Position numbers and translations under genes: made by a program. DNA of 64,000 nucleotides. It comes from Synechococcus elongatus PCC 11801 (GTDB lineage: Bacteria > Cyanobacteriota > Cyanobacteriia > Synechococcales > Synechococcaceae). The notes under the pieces are model-generated. The model was not told the DNA's origin. It saw nothing but the letters and a program-made list of their open reading frames with translations, and made no database searches. Below are positions 35,274 to 55,498 of this stretch, one piece after another; position 1 is the first letter of the stretch, and each line of letters opens with the position of its first letter. Where the stretch lies: NCBI RefSeq assembly GCF_003846445.2, contig NZ_CP030139.2, forward strand, positions 1,612,001 through 1,676,000. Reading direction: 5' to 3'.

Positions 35274-35807
35274 ATGAGTGCAGAGCGATCGCGATGGCTG
35301 CAGTGTTTGGGGCTCCCCGCTACGGCCGACGCGATCGCCATCAAAACGGCTTACCGCCAGTTAGCGCGGCAGTGGCACCCCGATCGCAACCCAGATCCGC
35401 AAGCTACGGCTCGCTTTCAGGAAATTCAGACCGCCTATGAGCGGCTGCTCGTTCTTCAAGAATCGGCAGCGTCTCAACCGATTCCACCGCCACCACCAAC
35501 GGATGCTGCAGCGATCGCACTGAAACGCCAGTTGCACCTGCAGCTCCAAGACCTTTTGGCCGATGGGCGCTGGGCCAAAGCGATCGCCTTAACCGAAGCT
35601 CTGCAGCAACGCCTGCCCGAAGACTGGGAAGTGCGGCAGTGGCTAGCGCTGTGCTATCTCCGGCAAGGACAAGCGTTACTCGTTCAACAACAGCGGCAGC
35701 GAGCGATCGCCTACTTTGAGAAAGCGCGCCGCACCGATCCGCATAACCCACGTCTTCAACAAGAAATTCAAGCCAGTCGACGACAAGCCTCAGCTCGACG
35801 AGCCTGA
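35274..35807 (+). CDS. J-domain protein with TPR-like C-terminus
   Basis: 177 aa. Residues 7-65 are a J domain: CLGLPATADAIAIKTAYRQLARQWHPDRNPDP with the HPD loop intact, then FQEIQTAYERLL. No Gly/Phe region, zinc finger or DnaJ C-terminal domain follows, so it is a class III DnaJ. The C-terminal half (LHLQLQDLLADG, EALQQRLPEDWEVRQWLALCYLRQGQ, AIAYFEKARRTDPHNP) resembles TPR repeats. It would recruit Hsp70 to a specific client. Its place behind clpR-clpP3 suggests supply of substrates to Clp, which is inference. The end overlaps the convergent GGDEF gene by 18 nt. Confidence 0.85.
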   Translation: MSAERSRWLQCLGLPATADAIAIKTAYRQLARQWHPDRNPDPQATARFQEIQTAYERLLVLQESAASQPIPPPPPTDAAAIALKRQLHLQLQDLLADGRWAKAIALTEALQQRLPEDWEVRQWLALCYLRQGQALLVQQQRQRAIAYFEKARRTDPHNPRLQQEIQASRRQASARRA

Positions 35808-38800
35808 TGAATCTAGGGTGGTGGCAATCGGACTAGATTTTTCGATTGCGCCTTCTTCAAGCTTGCGCCAATTCGGCTGACTGACCACAACACAGTTTCG
35901 TCCTGCAGCTTTGGCCTGATACAGACTGGTGTCTGCCGCTTTCAGGAGTGCATCGCCCGTGATGCCACTGTCGGGGAAAGCAGTCACGCCAATAGAGACA
36001 GTCAGGGGGGGCAGAGTCTGATCTCGATAGTCGATCACCAGTTCAGCGATCGCCTGCCGAATTTGATCCGCTTTACGGGCACTGACTTCAATGTTGGCCC
36101 CTGGCATCAAAATCGCAATTTCTTCACCGCCAAAGCGACAGACCACGTCTGAAGCGCGCACTTGATTGAGCAGGGCACGAGACACCTGCTTCAAGACCAC
36201 ATCGCCGGCATCGTGGCCAAACTCATCGTTGAAGCGTTTGAAGTGGTCAATATCCAGCAGCAAAATGCCAATGTTGTCGCCATTGCGCTTCGCTCGGGAG
36301 AGCTCCTGTTCAAAAAATTCCTGGAGATAGCGGCGGTTGAACAGCCCCGTGAGAGGGTCGCGCAGATTCTCTTGGCGCAGAGTTTCCCGCAGTTGTAGGT
36401 TGGCGATCGCCAGTGCTAGTTGCTCGGCAACGGTTTCTGCTAGGGGTCTTGCCGTGCTGTCTCCTGAACTGCTGGTATCTGTGACCAACCGCTCAAACTG
36501 CAAATGTCCCAAAATCTCACCAAAGGCACTGAGCGGCAAGCAAAAGATGCTCTCGTCTGGGGCGATCGCTCCCTGCACATGATGGCAAGCTGGGCCAGGA
36601 ACTTGGCCAGGATGGTAGAGGTAGGCCATGCCGCGGCGCAGTGCCCAGCAATCACTGAGCAGAAAACTCGGCTGGGTATGGGTGGGCTGTCCCCACGTCA
36701 CAACGGCTTGGAGGGTCTCAAGATTGGCCTCTTTTTGGAGTAAGCTCAGCTGGCCGCGACAGTCTGGAAATAGTTGTGGCATAAAGCTAGCAATCACTTG
36801 CCCGGCTTCCGCCATGCTGGAACAGGCCTGCAGAAAATCACTGAACTGCCCCAAGAGCTGCATTTCTCGGTTGCGCTGATTGAGTTCTTGGAGGCGCTGC
36901 TGTAACGCCAAGCCTGTTTCTTTGAGCGCTGTAATATCAACAGCGAGGCCCTGAATCGCCAAAGTTCCATCGGGCTCAAACAAAATTTCACCTTGGTCGC
37001 GCACCCAAATGGTTTGGCCATTGGTGCGGATCATCCGATATTCAAAACTGTAGGCACGTTGTTCTGTTACTGCGGCCTGAAACTGTGACACGACCCAATC
37101 CCGATCGCCAGGATGAAGGAAATCTTGCCAAGTGCGAGCTAGTCCTGCGTCCCACTGCGACGGTGGAACACCAATGAGGTCTTCAATTTGTGGGCTGATG
37201 TAGCCTTTATCATCAGGAAGACTGGGGTAAAAGCGATAGACAACGCCGGGGTTCTTTTCAATCAAAAGGCGAGCCTGCGCCTCTGCCTCTGCCAAGCGCA
37301 ACTCCGTTGCTTTGCGATCGGTGATATCGATCGCAGTCCCAATCAGCCGCACAATCTGACCGTTGGCATCGCGAACCGCTTCACCTTGGCCGCTGACCCA
37401 GTGGATACTGCCATCACGCCAAAGCACGCGGAAATCGATGGAATAGGGAATCCCTTCTTGGATGCAGCGCTGCACACTCTCCAGCCAATAGCTGCGATCG
37501 CGGGAATCAATCTGTTGCTGATGCTCCTCGAAACTCGGCTCCGGCTCACAGGGATCCATGCCAAATAGACGAAAGAGTTGCGGCGACCACTGGATGGTTT
37601 GTGTGGCAATTTCAAACGCCCAACTACCGACTTTGGCAACCCGCTGCGCCGTTTCTAGCTGATCGCGAATCGACTCGAGTTCCGTCGTGCGGATCTGGAC
37701 CAAATGCTCAAGGTTTTCGCTGAGATTGCGCAGTTGGCGATCAGCTAATGTGCGATCGGTAATGTCGATCGCCATACTGAGAACTAAAATTCGTCCTTCT
37801 GCATCCGTACCCAGCGCTGAGGAATAGAAATCCCAAGTGCGTAATGTCCCTGATTTGGTTCGCAGGACAAACTCACCATTCGACATTCGTTGGCCAGGGG
37901 CCAGTTCATACTGTGCCTGAATTCCCTGTAGAACCCCTGGGACTGCTTCTGTTCCGTAGGCAGCCTCCACCCAGCTGGCCACCGTTGGAGCTTCCTCAAG
38001 GCGATAGCCACTCAACTCCACCCAAGCATCGTTGACTTCCAGAATGAGGCCGTCATTGCGGTGCAACACCATGGGTAATGGTGCTTGCATGACAATTTGC
38101 CGAAAGCGACGCTCGATCTCTTGGGCGGATTGCAAGGCAACCAGAAGTTTTTCTTCTTGCTGGTTGAGCGATCGCGCTGAAAGCCAGAGCAGTGCTAACA
38201 GCAGACTGGTAGTTGTCAGCGCCACGAGCCCATCGCCCACAACCGGCGTGACAGACAAGTATTTTTGACTCAGGATTTTGATGCCGCGTAAGACGATCGG
38301 CAGCAGCAAAAACCAGGGCAGCAACACACGGCTCAACCGGCCGCCCAAGGAAGGGCTACTGAGCACGGCCAGTAGTCCTTTCTGAGGATGCAGACTCAGA
38401 GCACCAATACTGAGCACCAGCAAGCCCACAACCGTATTAGCGGCGATCACAGTGCTGCGATCGAGGAATAGATAAAAGGTGTCAATACTGAGCAAGTAAC
38501 CAAAGAGACCAAGCAACGCGATCCAAGCAGCGACCAACGCCAGCCCTTGGCTGCAAATTAGTCGAGGTTCACGCCAGCTTCTGGAACAGTTCAACGAAGC
38601 GGCGAGCAATAAAAACGAGATGGCAGCTTGGTCGCTCATGCGCCCGGGCCAGCCAGACCCCAGAGGGGAGATGCGATCGCGAATCAGCAATTCATCAATG
38701 CCCAGATTCCAGCCCGTGACATGTTGCAGCAACGTCAGGCTGGCGATGACAACCACAATTCCTAAACAACTGAGTCGCAGTCGTCGTTGCCAGCGCGATC

Positions 38801-39023
38801 GCGCATTGGCTGACACCAGCACCCAACCACTCAGGACGAAGCAAAAAGCCGTGTTGACCTTCATGGTGTTGGCGCTGCCCGGCAGCAGCATGGTGAGCGC
38901 CGGACTACCAATCACCCAGCCCAGCAACACAATCAGGCCAAGGGCGATCGCAAACCACCCACAGGATTGATACAGCGGCAGCTTGAGCCGCAGAGACGGA
39001 AAAGCCGGAAAATCCAATCTCAA
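35790..39023 (-). CDS. membrane multi-PAS/GAF diguanylate cyclase
   Basis: 1077 aa. Residues 1-290 hold about eight membrane helices of an uncharacterised sensory type (motifs KVNTAFCFVLSGWVL, GIDELLI, GRMSDQAAISFLLLAASL). PAS domains follow at about 310-420 (PMVLHRNDGLILEVNDAW), 460-580 (VGSWAFEIATQTIQWS, with HWVSGQGEA) and 590-705 (NPGVVYRFYPS, TIWVRDQGE), then a degenerate GAF (735-890) and a GGDEF domain (905-1060). The active site is GGEEI and the RxxD inhibition site (RASD, five residues ahead) is present, so cyclase activity with feedback is expected. The ligand or light signal is unknown. Confidence 0.88.
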   Translation of the reverse strand: MRLDFPAFPSLRLKLPLYQSCGWFAIALGLIVLLGWVIGSPALTMLLPGSANTMKVNTAFCFVLSGWVLVSANARSRWQRRLRLSCLGIVVVIASLTLLQHVTGWNLGIDELLIRDRISPLGSGWPGRMSDQAAISFLLLAASLNCSRSWREPRLICSQGLALVAAWIALLGLFGYLLSIDTFYLFLDRSTVIAANTVVGLLVLSIGALSLHPQKGLLAVLSSPSLGGRLSRVLLPWFLLLPIVLRGIKILSQKYLSVTPVVGDGLVALTTTSLLLALLWLSARSLNQQEEKLLVALQSAQEIERRFRQIVMQAPLPMVLHRNDGLILEVNDAWVELSGYRLEEAPTVASWVEAAYGTEAVPGVLQGIQAQYELAPGQRMSNGEFVLRTKSGTLRTWDFYSSALGTDAEGRILVLSMAIDITDRTLADRQLRNLSENLEHLVQIRTTELESIRDQLETAQRVAKVGSWAFEIATQTIQWSPQLFRLFGMDPCEPEPSFEEHQQQIDSRDRSYWLESVQRCIQEGIPYSIDFRVLWRDGSIHWVSGQGEAVRDANGQIVRLIGTAIDITDRKATELRLAEAEAQARLLIEKNPGVVYRFYPSLPDDKGYISPQIEDLIGVPPSQWDAGLARTWQDFLHPGDRDWVVSQFQAAVTEQRAYSFEYRMIRTNGQTIWVRDQGEILFEPDGTLAIQGLAVDITALKETGLALQQRLQELNQRNREMQLLGQFSDFLQACSSMAEAGQVIASFMPQLFPDCRGQLSLLQKEANLETLQAVVTWGQPTHTQPSFLLSDCWALRRGMAYLYHPGQVPGPACHHVQGAIAPDESIFCLPLSAFGEILGHLQFERLVTDTSSSGDSTARPLAETVAEQLALAIANLQLRETLRQENLRDPLTGLFNRRYLQEFFEQELSRAKRNGDNIGILLLDIDHFKRFNDEFGHDAGDVVLKQVSRALLNQVRASDVVCRFGGEEIAILMPGANIEVSARKADQIRQAIAELVIDYRDQTLPPLTVSIGVTAFPDSGITGDALLKAADTSLYQAKAAGRNCVVVSQPNWRKLEEGAIEKSSPIATTLDSSGSSS

Positions 39024-39069
39024 AAGCTCGACCCTGCCCTTTTAGTATCCTTAAATTTACGAATCGCGC

Positions 39070-39097
39070 TTGACTTGTTTACAGGCCTGAACAAAAT
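39070..39097 (+). promoter_or_regulatory. candidate promoter for the cyanobacteriochrome-GGDEF gene
   Basis: TTGACT (39070-39075), a 16-base spacer and CAAAAT (39092-39097). It lies about 80 bases before the start codon in the 162-bp divergent region. Confidence 0.4.
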
Positions 39098-39185
39098 CTA
39101 AAGGCACGTCTTACGCTAAGAAGAGAACGCCGTGCTAGCGGCCTGCTGGCATTTTGACGGTTAGTTTCATATCGCTGGACTGTCT

Positions 39186-40523
39186 GTGCCCCTTTCCTCC
39201 GATTCCCGTCATCCGTGGCCGGCTGCAAGTCGGTGGATGTTTGGGCTTGTCGCAGGACTGCTCGCCGCCGCATTTTTAGCAACTGTAAAGCCGGGTTCTG
39301 GCTGGCTCTTGTTGGTCAGCAGTTTAGTGACTGTCACCGCCGCCGCAATCCTCCAATCGGTGAGCGATCGCCGGTATCTCAACGACTTGAGTCATCGCTA
39401 TGAGCAGCTGCGCCGCGAACAAGAGACGCTCGCCGACAGCTATCAAAAGCAACTCGACCAAGAGCGGCTTTTGATAGATATCACTCTCAGCGTTCGTCAG
39501 TCGCTCAATCTCAATAAAGTCATGGAAACGGCTGTCACGGAGGTGCGATCGCTACTCCGGGTCAATCGTGTTTTGGTGTATCAGTTTCAACCCGACTGGC
39601 GCGGTGAAGTGGTTGCAGAATCAGTTTCAGATCCCGAGTATTCAGTGCTGGGAATCAAAATTGAAGACTACTGTTTTGAAAACGATTGGGATAAGCAGTA
39701 TCGCGAAGGCTATATCCATCAAATTCATCAGGTTGCCACTGCTCCGCTCAATCCCTGCTATCGACAACTGCTGCAGTCGCTGAAAGTGCAGTCCAACCTC
39801 GTTTTACCGATTCGCTACGAGCAAAAACTATGGGGGCTTTTGGCCGCTCACCATTGCACATTACCCAGAACTTGGCTGAACAGCGAGGTGATTCTACTCA
39901 AGCAGGTTGCTGAACAGCTCAGTATTGCGATCTCGCAGGCTCAGCTGCTCAAAACCTTAGAAGTGACCAATCAAAAACTGCAAGATCAGGTGCGTATTGA
40001 TGGCCTAACTCAGATTCCCAATCGCCGCCGCTTTGATGAATATTTCCACGATGTTTGGCTCTGGGGCTGTCGCGATCACAGCCCACTCGCTCTGTTACTC
40101 ATCGATGTGGATTACTTCAAAAACTACAACGACTTCTATGGTCACCTCGCCGGTGATTCCGTCTTGCGAAAAATCGGTTTATTGCTGAGCGCCACGGTGC
40201 TCCGTGCCACGGATTTAGTCGCTCGCTACGGTGGTGAAGAGTTTGTCGTCGTCTTACCCAGTACCACCCTAGAAGGAGCGAAAGCCGTTGCCCAGCGTCT
40301 TCAGTCGGACTTGAACCAGCTCAAGATTCCCCATGAGCATTCCCCGGTGGCCGACTGGATTACCGTCAGCATTGGCGTGGCGGTGATGGTTCCCGATCCA
40401 ACGGTGCCCTCGGTGATGTTGATCGACCAAGCAGACGAGGCACTGTATGACGCGAAGGCTGCTGGCCGCAACTGCATCATGTACGCCAAGTCCAGTTCTA
40501 CAGACAAGCCCTATCAGCCCTGA
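39186..40523 (+). CDS. DXCF-type cyanobacteriochrome GAF domain fused to GGDEF (light-sensing diguanylate cyclase)
   Basis: 445 aa. Two membrane helices (about 18-35 and 40-57), a helical linker (70-95), a GAF domain (about 95-255) and a GGDEF domain (270-435). The GAF has the two chromophore cysteines of DXCF cyanobacteriochromes: Cys163 in DYCF and Cys191 in NPCYRQLL, 28 residues apart, the same spacing as Cys494 and Cys522 of TePixJ. SNLVLPI and GLLAAHHC are the usual flanking motifs. The residue after Cys191 is Tyr where most bilin-GAFs have His. GGDEF is RYGGEEF with I-site RATD, so it should make c-di-GMP under photocontrol. Start is GTG 39186; ATG 39237 is possible. Confidence 0.85.
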   Translation: MPLSSDSRHPWPAASRWMFGLVAGLLAAAFLATVKPGSGWLLLVSSLVTVTAAAILQSVSDRRYLNDLSHRYEQLRREQETLADSYQKQLDQERLLIDITLSVRQSLNLNKVMETAVTEVRSLLRVNRVLVYQFQPDWRGEVVAESVSDPEYSVLGIKIEDYCFENDWDKQYREGYIHQIHQVATAPLNPCYRQLLQSLKVQSNLVLPIRYEQKLWGLLAAHHCTLPRTWLNSEVILLKQVAEQLSIAISQAQLLKTLEVTNQKLQDQVRIDGLTQIPNRRRFDEYFHDVWLWGCRDHSPLALLLIDVDYFKNYNDFYGHLAGDSVLRKIGLLLSATVLRATDLVARYGGEEFVVVLPSTTLEGAKAVAQRLQSDLNQLKIPHEHSPVADWITVSIGVAVMVPDPTVPSVMLIDQADEALYDAKAAGRNCIMYAKSSSTDKPYQP

Positions 40524-52798: not shown

Positions 52799-55498
52799 AT
52801 GCCGTCACTTTTTGCTTGGCTCCCTCGCCCGCGCCTGAGAGACTGGCCTGCTATTTGGCTGGTTGCTGGGATTCATATTCTTGTCTCTCAGTTTGCCTAC
52901 GCCTATACGACCCTTCCTGATGCCAAAGTCAGTCCTATTTGGCCTTCTTCAGGAGTCACGCTAGCGGCACTGTTTTTGGCAGGGCCTCAAGTCTGGCCAG
53001 GAATTCTCATCGGTGACTTTTTACTCAAGGTGATGAGTGGGCTCGGTGTAGGGCTCAGTATTAGTGGGGCCATCGCCAATGCCAGTTCACGCTTAGTTGG
53101 CTATGCGATTGCCAAACGAGTAATTAGCCGTTCGAGTCGACTGCAAACTCTCGATGAAGTTTGGACTCTGTTAGGGGCTGCAGCAGTTCAAGCAACCGTC
53201 TCTGCTTTGATTGGGACCACCGGCAATTGCTTGATGGGCAATGTCAGTTGGAGTCGCTTTTGGTCAGTTGGCGGCACCTGGTGGACGAGCAATGCCAGTA
53301 GCGCCATTTTATTTTTTCCAATCGTCTTTTTATGGGGTACGCAAGGGCTCCGACCCTTCAAAATGCCCATCAAGCGTTGGCTGGAATTACTGGCAATTGC
53401 CTCGATCGTTTTTGCGATCATGACCTTGGCCTTTACCGGCAGGCCCTATCCCGCCAGCTCTCTTGTCATTCCCATGTTTGTCTGGCTGGCATTGCGGTTC
53501 GAGAATACTTGGGTTGCCGTCGGCGTTGTTCTCGTCACTTTATTTTCTTTGATTTCAACAGCGAACGGCAGAGGTCAATTCAGTGTTCTCTCCACCAATG
53601 AAGCCTTAATTCTCTTACAGAGCTATAACAGCAGCATTGCAGTGATGAGCTTCATCCTGAATGCTGTGATCAATCAAGCTCGTAATAGTCAAATCTATCT
53701 CCGTCAAATTTTAGACTACCTGCCGATCGGGGTTTCTGTGCATGATTTGACGGGTCGCATGACCTATGTCAACGCTATTGGCGAAGCAATTCTACGAACA
53801 ACCAGCAGTCTGAATTTGCAGGGTTTAGCGAAATTTTTCAATGTTTACCAAACGGGCAAGGATGAAATTATTTCTCCTGAGAAACTGCCTCTTGCGATCG
53901 CCTTGAAAGGAGAATTGAATCACACAGAAGACCTTGAGCTACGCTGGCCCGATCGCACGGTTCCTCTAGAAGTTTGGGGCATTCCTATCTATGACAAGGC
54001 GGGTAATGTCGCTGAGGGGATGACTGTTTTTCAGGATATTCATGAACGCTTAGAAAATGCCCGCATTATTTACCAAGCAAATGAACAGCTCTCTCAAGCC
54101 GTCCAAGAATTAGAGGCCACCAATCGCAAACTGGAGCAGGAAGCATCAGAGCGCCAACAAGCCCAAGCCCAGCTGTGGCATTTGGCGCATTTCGATACGC
54201 TGACACAACTGCCCAATCGGACTTACTTTATCCAGCAGCTTCACGCTTGGTTTCATCGCTATCAAGTCGATCATCAAGAACCCTTTGCTGTTCTCTTTTT
54301 AGACTGCGATCGCTTCAAAATTGTCAATGACTCTCTGGGCCATAGTGCCGGAGATAGTTTGCTCACTCAAGTAGCTCAGCGGCTGCAAACCTGCATCGCG
54401 GAACCCGTGATTTTTGCGCGACTGGGCGGTGATGAATTCGGTGTCTTAGTACCCGCCAATGACCCCAATTATCCTCAAAGTCTGGCGGAAGAGCTGCATG
54501 ACTTAATCGTCAATCCTTTTGAGGTTCAAGGTCAGCGAATCTACATTGGCGTCAGCATTGGAATCAGTCTTACCTCAACACGCGTACAAGCTGCTGAAGA
54601 ATTACTCCGCAATGCCGATACGGCGATGTACGCGGCCAAACGCAATCCCCTAAGCCGCGGTATTCAAGTCTTCTCCGATAAGCTTTCCGTGAACTCACGG
54701 AAGAATCTCGCTCTCGAAACTTCCCTCCGCGAAGCTATTCAACAGGCTGAGATTGATCTCTACTATCAACCGATTATTGATCTCAAGACTGGCACCCTCG
54801 TTGCAGCTGAAGCCCTCGCTCGCTGGTTCCATCCTGAACTAGGCACGATTCCGCCCCTAGAGTTCGTCTCTCTGGCTGAGCGATCGAAGCTCATTTTTAG
54901 TCTCGGCAACTTTATTCTTGAAAAAGCTTGTTTGCAGGTTTATCTCTGGCAGCAAGCTCAGCTGATGCCAGATAGCTTCGTCTTGCATGTCAATATCTCC
55001 GCCCAGCAAATTTGCCATGAAGACTTTGGGGATTGGATTAAAGACATCCTCAAAAGGACAGAGATCCCTGCTCAAAAATTGATGCTAGAAATTACTGAGT
55101 CGAGTGTTGCAGAAGATATTGACCAGCGACTTCTGAAGCTACTCGACGAGCTGAAATCAATGGGCATCAAGCTCAGTATTGATGATTTTGGGACAGGGTA
55201 TTCCTCACTGAGCTACCTGCAAAAGCTACCAGTCAACTCCCTCAAGATTGATCGATCGTTCATCCACCAAATCAATCAAGCAGGTGACAATCGTCAGGTG
55301 GCTCAAGCCACGATCGCCCTTGCTCACAGCTTTGGACTCGCGGTTGTGGCCGAAGGCATTGAAGACGAGGCGCAACTCCATTGGCTCCGGCAGCTCGGCT
55401 GCGATATGGGGCAGGGCTATTACTTCTCGAAGCCGCTGTCGGCCCATGATATGACCGAGTTTCTGCGCTGCCACGGCTCGGCCAGCAAAACCCGGTAG
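52799..55498 (+). CDS. MASE1-PAS-GGDEF-EAL cyclic-di-GMP protein
   Basis: 899 aa. Residues 1-300 are a MASE1 membrane sensor (SPIWPSSGVTLAALFLAGPQVWPGILIGDFLL). A PAS domain follows (about 305-410, YLPIGVSVHDLTGRMTYVNAIGEAIL), a helical linker, GGDEF (465-625, LGGDEFGV, no RxxD I-site) and EAL (645-895, VAAEALARW, with SIDDFGTGYSSL, KIDRSF and VAEGIED). Both active-site signatures are intact, so it could synthesise or degrade c-di-GMP; fused proteins of this type often act mainly as phosphodiesterases. The third c-di-GMP gene in this window. Confidence 0.92.
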   Translation: MPSLFAWLPRPRLRDWPAIWLVAGIHILVSQFAYAYTTLPDAKVSPIWPSSGVTLAALFLAGPQVWPGILIGDFLLKVMSGLGVGLSISGAIANASSRLVGYAIAKRVISRSSRLQTLDEVWTLLGAAAVQATVSALIGTTGNCLMGNVSWSRFWSVGGTWWTSNASSAILFFPIVFLWGTQGLRPFKMPIKRWLELLAIASIVFAIMTLAFTGRPYPASSLVIPMFVWLALRFENTWVAVGVVLVTLFSLISTANGRGQFSVLSTNEALILLQSYNSSIAVMSFILNAVINQARNSQIYLRQILDYLPIGVSVHDLTGRMTYVNAIGEAILRTTSSLNLQGLAKFFNVYQTGKDEIISPEKLPLAIALKGELNHTEDLELRWPDRTVPLEVWGIPIYDKAGNVAEGMTVFQDIHERLENARIIYQANEQLSQAVQELEATNRKLEQEASERQQAQAQLWHLAHFDTLTQLPNRTYFIQQLHAWFHRYQVDHQEPFAVLFLDCDRFKIVNDSLGHSAGDSLLTQVAQRLQTCIAEPVIFARLGGDEFGVLVPANDPNYPQSLAEELHDLIVNPFEVQGQRIYIGVSIGISLTSTRVQAAEELLRNADTAMYAAKRNPLSRGIQVFSDKLSVNSRKNLALETSLREAIQQAEIDLYYQPIIDLKTGTLVAAEALARWFHPELGTIPPLEFVSLAERSKLIFSLGNFILEKACLQVYLWQQAQLMPDSFVLHVNISAQQICHEDFGDWIKDILKRTEIPAQKLMLEITESSVAEDIDQRLLKLLDELKSMGIKLSIDDFGTGYSSLSYLQKLPVNSLKIDRSFIHQINQAGDNRQVAQATIALAHSFGLAVVAEGIEDEAQLHWLRQLGCDMGQGYYFSKPLSAHDMTEFLRCHGSASKTR

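Follow-up and report, generated by a model that had tools for sequence, protein, structure and literature searches.

The closest characterized relative of the protein described here is SesA (Tlr0924) of Thermosynechococcus, in which a DXCF cyanobacteriochrome (CBCR) GAF domain is joined to a GGDEF domain carrying an RxxD site. SesA binds its bilin covalently at the canonical cysteine and shows the usual behavior of a blue/green receptor carrying phycocyanobilin/phycoviolobilin, its two cysteines being published as Cys499 and Cys527 (PMC4223177), and the arginine of the RxxD site as R676 (PMC5871770).

Two other systems offer partial parallels. The GAF domain of TePixJ (PDB 3VV4, 4GLQ) has the same fold, both cysteines, and the same spacing between them, but it belongs to a chemotaxis-type phototaxis receptor, has a His after the canonical cysteine, and falls in a clade separate from that of the GGDEF-linked GAFs. 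On the other hand, the phytochrome-linked diguanylate cyclase IsPadC (5LLX) is the best whole-chain fold match and has a bilin sensor, a coiled coil, and a GGDEF domain in common with the present protein, although it is a PAS-GAF-PHY bacteriophytochrome that uses biliverdin and red light and has no membrane hairpin. The IsPadC cyclase is controlled by coiled-coil register switching (PMC6005682).

The window, i.e., the whole stretch of 64,000 nucleotides of Synechococcus elongatus PCC 11801 that was analyzed, encodes a protein which shares with SesA the DXCF CBCR GAF, the GGDEF domain with its RxxD, the Cys-Tyr pair at the canonical site, and the 42-residue spacing from the conserved Trp to the DxLT motif, with 42% identity in the GAF and 43% in the GGDEF domain. 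The two proteins differ at the N-terminus, where SesA has three CBS matches and PAS_3, whereas in the window protein a hydrophobic hairpin of two helices and a coiled coil are all that precede the GAF. This protein is probably a minimal, membrane-tethered, bilin-based diguanylate cyclase of the SesA type, activated by blue light.

Gene and domain anatomy

The features of the gene are as follows, each with its basis.

39186..40523, forward strand: CBCR-diguanylate cyclase CDS, 445 aa, GTG start (ORF and Pfam)
39225..39284, forward strand: first predicted membrane helix, aa 14-33 (hydropathy; predicted helix, pLDDT about 53-68)
39300..39362, forward strand: second predicted membrane helix, about aa 39-59, running on into the coiled coil (hydropathy 2.02 over aa 41-59; helix 39-105)
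39363..39446, forward strand: coiled-coil-like helix from the hairpin to the GAF, aa 60-87 (AlphaFold model)
39510..39932, forward strand: GAF domain, DXCF cyanobacteriochrome type, aa 109-249 (Pfam, PDB sequence matches, 4GLQ fold match)
39672..39674, forward strand: Cys163 codon TGT, the second cysteine (that of DXCF), which is predicted to bond reversibly to C10 of the bilin, equivalent to SesA Cys499 (alignment)
39756..39761, forward strand: Cys191-Tyr192 codons (Cys191 is TGC, 39756-39758), canonical chromophore cysteine and neighboring Tyr, equivalent to SesA Cys527-Tyr528 (alignment)
39879..39992, forward strand: signaling helix joining the GAF to the GGDEF, aa 232-269 (AlphaFold model, linker alignment)
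39996..40472, forward strand: GGDEF diguanylate cyclase domain, aa 271-429 (Pfam)
40203..40214, forward strand: RATD product-inhibition (I) site, aa 340-343, equivalent to the RxxD of SesA at Arg676 (PMC5871770; alignment)
40230..40244, forward strand: GGEEF active-site motif, aa 349-353 (alignment)

The sequence bears out the reading frame, strand, length, and GTG start given in the initial annotation. The upstream residues DSRHPWPAASRW are shared with a congener (genome G001), and the stretch ahead of Met18 is almost identical in both, which favors the GTG start over Met18. Reading from the N-terminus, two helices form a predicted membrane hairpin, a coiled coil follows, and then come the DXCF CBCR GAF and an intact GGDEF, with Pfam scores of 68.9 bits for the GAF (cut-off 22.4) and 169.1 bits for the GGDEF (cut-off 23.8). 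The proposed fusion of such a GAF to an intact diguanylate cyclase is thus supported by Pfam, by motifs, and by fold, as is an N-terminal anchor in place of further sensor domains, given that two hydrophobic segments precede the GAF and that Pfam finds no CBS or PAS domain in the protein.

The AlphaFold model of the 445-aa protein, built from a shallow alignment, has a mean pLDDT of 86.5 and comprises, besides the folded GAF and GGDEF domains, three helices, at 14-33, at 39-105 (a long one that leads into the GAF), and at 232-269. NCBIfam has no specific equivalog above its cut-off for the CBCR-GGDEF protein, the promoter and terminator scans gave only chance-level results, and the literature searches found no publication on this particular protein.

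Chromophore pocket and the residue after the canonical cysteine

Cys163 lies within DYCF and Cys191 within PCYRQLL, 28 residues apart, which is the distance between the chromophore cysteines of TePixJ (DPCF to ECH) in a gapless alignment, so that the spacing claimed for this pair agrees with the TePixJ sequence. Both cysteines fall at pocket positions rather than outside the chromophore pocket, and Cys191 aligns with the CBCR chromophore cysteine and with SesA Cys527. The top PDB sequence matches of the GAF are bilin-binding CBCRs and proteins derived from them, and the modeled GAF superposes on the blue-absorbing form of TePixJ (4GLQ) with an rmsd of 1.5 Å over 143 columns. A gene for a ferredoxin-dependent bilin reductase is present in the same genome.

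Other pocket residues are kept as well, namely R128, W216, and C224 (each in 95% or more of the relatives) and H222 (67 of the 72 dual-Cys homologues). Four family-conserved columns depart from the usual residue, with N127 in place of an Asp found in 68 of 72, A220 for Ile, Q253 for Glu, and L255 for Tyr; the last two are located within the signaling helix and could change the coupling.

The one claim that did not survive is that the Tyr after Cys191 is unusual and might bring odd color tuning or bilin binding. Among 72 other dual-Cys GAF-GGDEF homologues, a count that excludes the window protein and its orthologue, the residue after the canonical cysteine is His in 45 and Tyr in 25, with at least nine His/Tyr exchanges on the tree of the dual-Cys proteins. 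The SesA gene itself (genome G030, L212), read from a GTG start, yields Cys499, Cys527, Tyr528, and the RxxD Arg676, in exact agreement with the published numbering, and its genome is that of the TePixJ source species, because its PixJ GAF is 100% identical to the PDB TePixJ sequence. Tyr192 is therefore ruled out as an oddity by both the count and SesA Tyr528. At the equivalent site, H87Y was selected in the engineered miRFP670nano, where it stacks on biliverdin (PMC6336887). Together with SesA, which has the same Cys-Tyr and a covalent bilin, this indicates that the site can carry a Tyr and still attach bilin covalently. The uncommon part of the protein appears to be its membrane anchor, not the Tyr. 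Neither the kinship with SesA nor the constant length of the linker had been noted in the initial annotation.

Kinship with SesA

The homologue set comprised 120 GAF-GGDEF proteins, with both cysteines at the same columns in 74, while the scan of the genome contigs gave chiefly GGDEF-only relatives. When SesA is used as the query against this genome, the best match is the CBCR-GGDEF protein, at 297.6 bits, followed by a paralogue at 257.1, and the search in the opposite direction, against Thermosynechococcus-like genomes, returns SesA, which makes the two proteins reciprocal best hits. The protein also joins the SesA clade in the full-length tree of 119 proteins (SH-aLRT 84), in one restricted to 70 dual-Cys proteins (89), and in the GAF-only tree (81), values which lie below the mark of 95, on a long branch. 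Orthology with SesA is likely and falls short of proven, given that trees and best hits agree while the support is under 95 and the branch is long.

The orthologue of the congener, which was the sole other genome in the genus and order searches, is 76% identical and has the same hairpin, DYCF, DCYRRLL with its Tyr, GGEEF, and RATD. The combination of two cysteines, DXCF, GGEEF, and RxxD is not due to chance, since it is kept in this congener and both cysteines recur in 74 of the 120 homologues.

Diguanylate cyclase domain and linker

The GGEEF (349-353) and the RATD inhibition site (340-343) are both intact, as had been read from the sequence. The cyclase residues D272, D307, N315, D316, and GGEEF are kept and are nearly invariant among the relatives, and the modeled GGDEF superposes on that of WspR at 1.7-1.8 Å. 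With an intact GG[DE]EF, DxLT, and the metal and GTP residues, catalytic activity is predicted.

The conserved W230 and D272, the Asp of DGLT, are separated by 42 residues, as in SesA. Across the 120 homologues, this spacing is 42 in 110, 35 in seven, and 56 in one, and the two remaining proteins, with 48 and 67, are without the Cys pair, so that all 74 dual-Cys proteins have a spacing of 35, 42, or 56, i.e., a multiple of seven (whole heptads). This regularity fits a coiled-coil linker with a phase that matters, and kinship by itself accounts for part of it.

Predicted membrane hairpin

The membrane helices are predicted from hydropathy and from a low-confidence part of the model, in which a loop of about five residues joins them. 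In a survey of matches at E < 1e-75 plus the genome-contig loci, membrane helices within about 110 residues ahead of the GAF occur, among the 120 homologues, in the window protein and its orthologue only. One further stretch, in L160, passed the hydropathy threshold with a value of 1.62 and was rejected as a membrane helix, its sequence being read as the core of a receiver-like domain. Two other short proteins, of 417 and 421 aa (L169 and L146), are also without N-terminal sensors, and probably begin downstream of the hydrophobic stretch.

On a speculative note, the hairpin might direct the blue-light synthesis of c-di-GMP to a particular membrane, such as that of the cell pole or the thylakoid, and in S. 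elongatus the color of light would then set a local rather than a cell-wide signal. The CBS-type SesA module would in that case have been divided in two, one part being the light sensor on its tether and the other a CBS-type cyclase that is blind; the odds of this are rather low.

Genomic neighborhood and related genes

The photoreceptor gene has a divergently transcribed neighbor.

35790..39023, reverse strand: second diguanylate cyclase (membrane segments, PAS-PAS, GGDEF), not part of the photoreceptor (ORF and Pfam)

The two genes are separated by 162 bp (39024-39185), and their order is kept in the congener; the divergent PAS-GGDEF gene is found at about 3 kb from the photoreceptor gene in both genomes. 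A third c-di-GMP gene, at 52799-55498 on the forward strand, 12 kb downstream, encodes N-terminal membrane segments followed by GGDEF and EAL, which brings three c-di-GMP enzymes within 20 kb. As for the rest of this genome (2.80 Mb), one of two small contigs is 81-90% identical to plasmids of S. elongatus, in keeping with a host of that group, and the other gave no plasmid match.

Elsewhere in the same genome, a CBS-GAF-GGDEF paralogue (G000:C1:1242461-1244323, reverse strand, L012) has the domain order of SesA and GAF-GGDEF homology to the window protein, but its GAF is without both cysteines and the gene is interrupted by an in-frame TAG within the GAF-GGDEF helix, with 472 aa before the TAG and a GGDEF frame of 191 aa after it; the frame of the congener is intact (L011). 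The genome also encodes a PixJ-like receptor (G000:C1:about 1138867-1142013; L016, L020) whose 1614-aa frame contains a tandem array of no fewer than six DXCF GAFs that are almost identical, and five GAFs were matched in the 1408-aa frame of the congener, so that the repeat number appears to differ between the two.

Proposed mechanism and alternatives

The view of this protein as a blue-absorbing photoreceptor that gates c-di-GMP synthesis holds by homology with SesA; its bilin content, colors, and sign of light control are inferred, as are dimerization and a membrane location. Phycocyanobilin would be attached to the GAF through Cys191, and would probably be isomerized in part to phycoviolobilin. 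In the dark state, Cys163 would add to C10 of the bilin, and the receptor would absorb blue. Blue light would then flip the bilin and break the Cys163 bond, yielding a state that absorbs green (or teal), and the change would travel along the 42-residue helical linker, from W230 to D272, of a putative homodimer. The GGDEF would thereby be switched on to make c-di-GMP, subject to feedback inhibition at the RATD site, while the two-helix hairpin would tether the enzyme to a membrane.

Homologues can differ in the sign of their light control, and the same bilin photoreceptor could work with the opposite sign, the blue-absorbing dark state being active and light switching it off, or could form a teal product with a twisted or trapped bilin. 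Such an arrangement is unlikely. It would accord with the four divergent columns, two of which (Q253 and L255) lie in the helix between the GAF and the GGDEF, and with the fact that both green and teal photoproducts are known among the DXCF receptors. SesB, for example, is regulated by teal light, but the closest characterized relative, SesA, is activated by blue light (PMC5871770), and the linker has the same 42 residues in SesA and in the window protein.

It is also conceivable, if quite improbable, that the GAF holds no bilin in vivo, and that the membrane-anchored cyclase is under some other control, for instance by C163 and C191 acting as a redox pair of thiols, or by a signal received at the hairpin. 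The 46 of the 120 related proteins that are not dual-Cys, including the CBS-GAF-GGDEF paralogue of this genome, would fit this scheme, as would N127 in place of an almost invariant Asp, but both cysteines, the DXCF frame, and the other pocket residues are kept across two species at 76% identity, and the short loop between the helices leaves too little for a periplasmic sensor. An atypical pocket owing to Tyr192, for example one that accepts biliverdin or is strongly fluorescent, in the manner of H87Y of miRFP670nano, is very improbable; the window GAF does align with that engineered protein, including the CYR, but Tyr is a natural residue in about a third of the dual-Cys homologues (25 of 72), and SesA has the ordinary bilins and colors with the same Tyr (PMC4223177).

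Implications

The preferred reading, a tethered blue-light-activated cyclase, belongs to a known kind, the SesA-type CBCR cyclase, and what is new here is the uncommon membrane anchor. At 445 aa, the protein is among the shortest GAF-GGDEF proteins of the SesA kind in the sample, and may be a possible optogenetic part.

S. elongatus is a model for work on circadian rhythms and biofilms. According to a 2026 study, what its 20 c-di-GMP genes do has remained unclear; the sole light-linked one named there encodes a LOV phosphodiesterase, SL2 (PMC13001216). A compact blue-light cyclase with a single GAF, for which SesA provides a yardstick, would make the control of c-di-GMP by blue light directly testable in the S. 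elongatus group.
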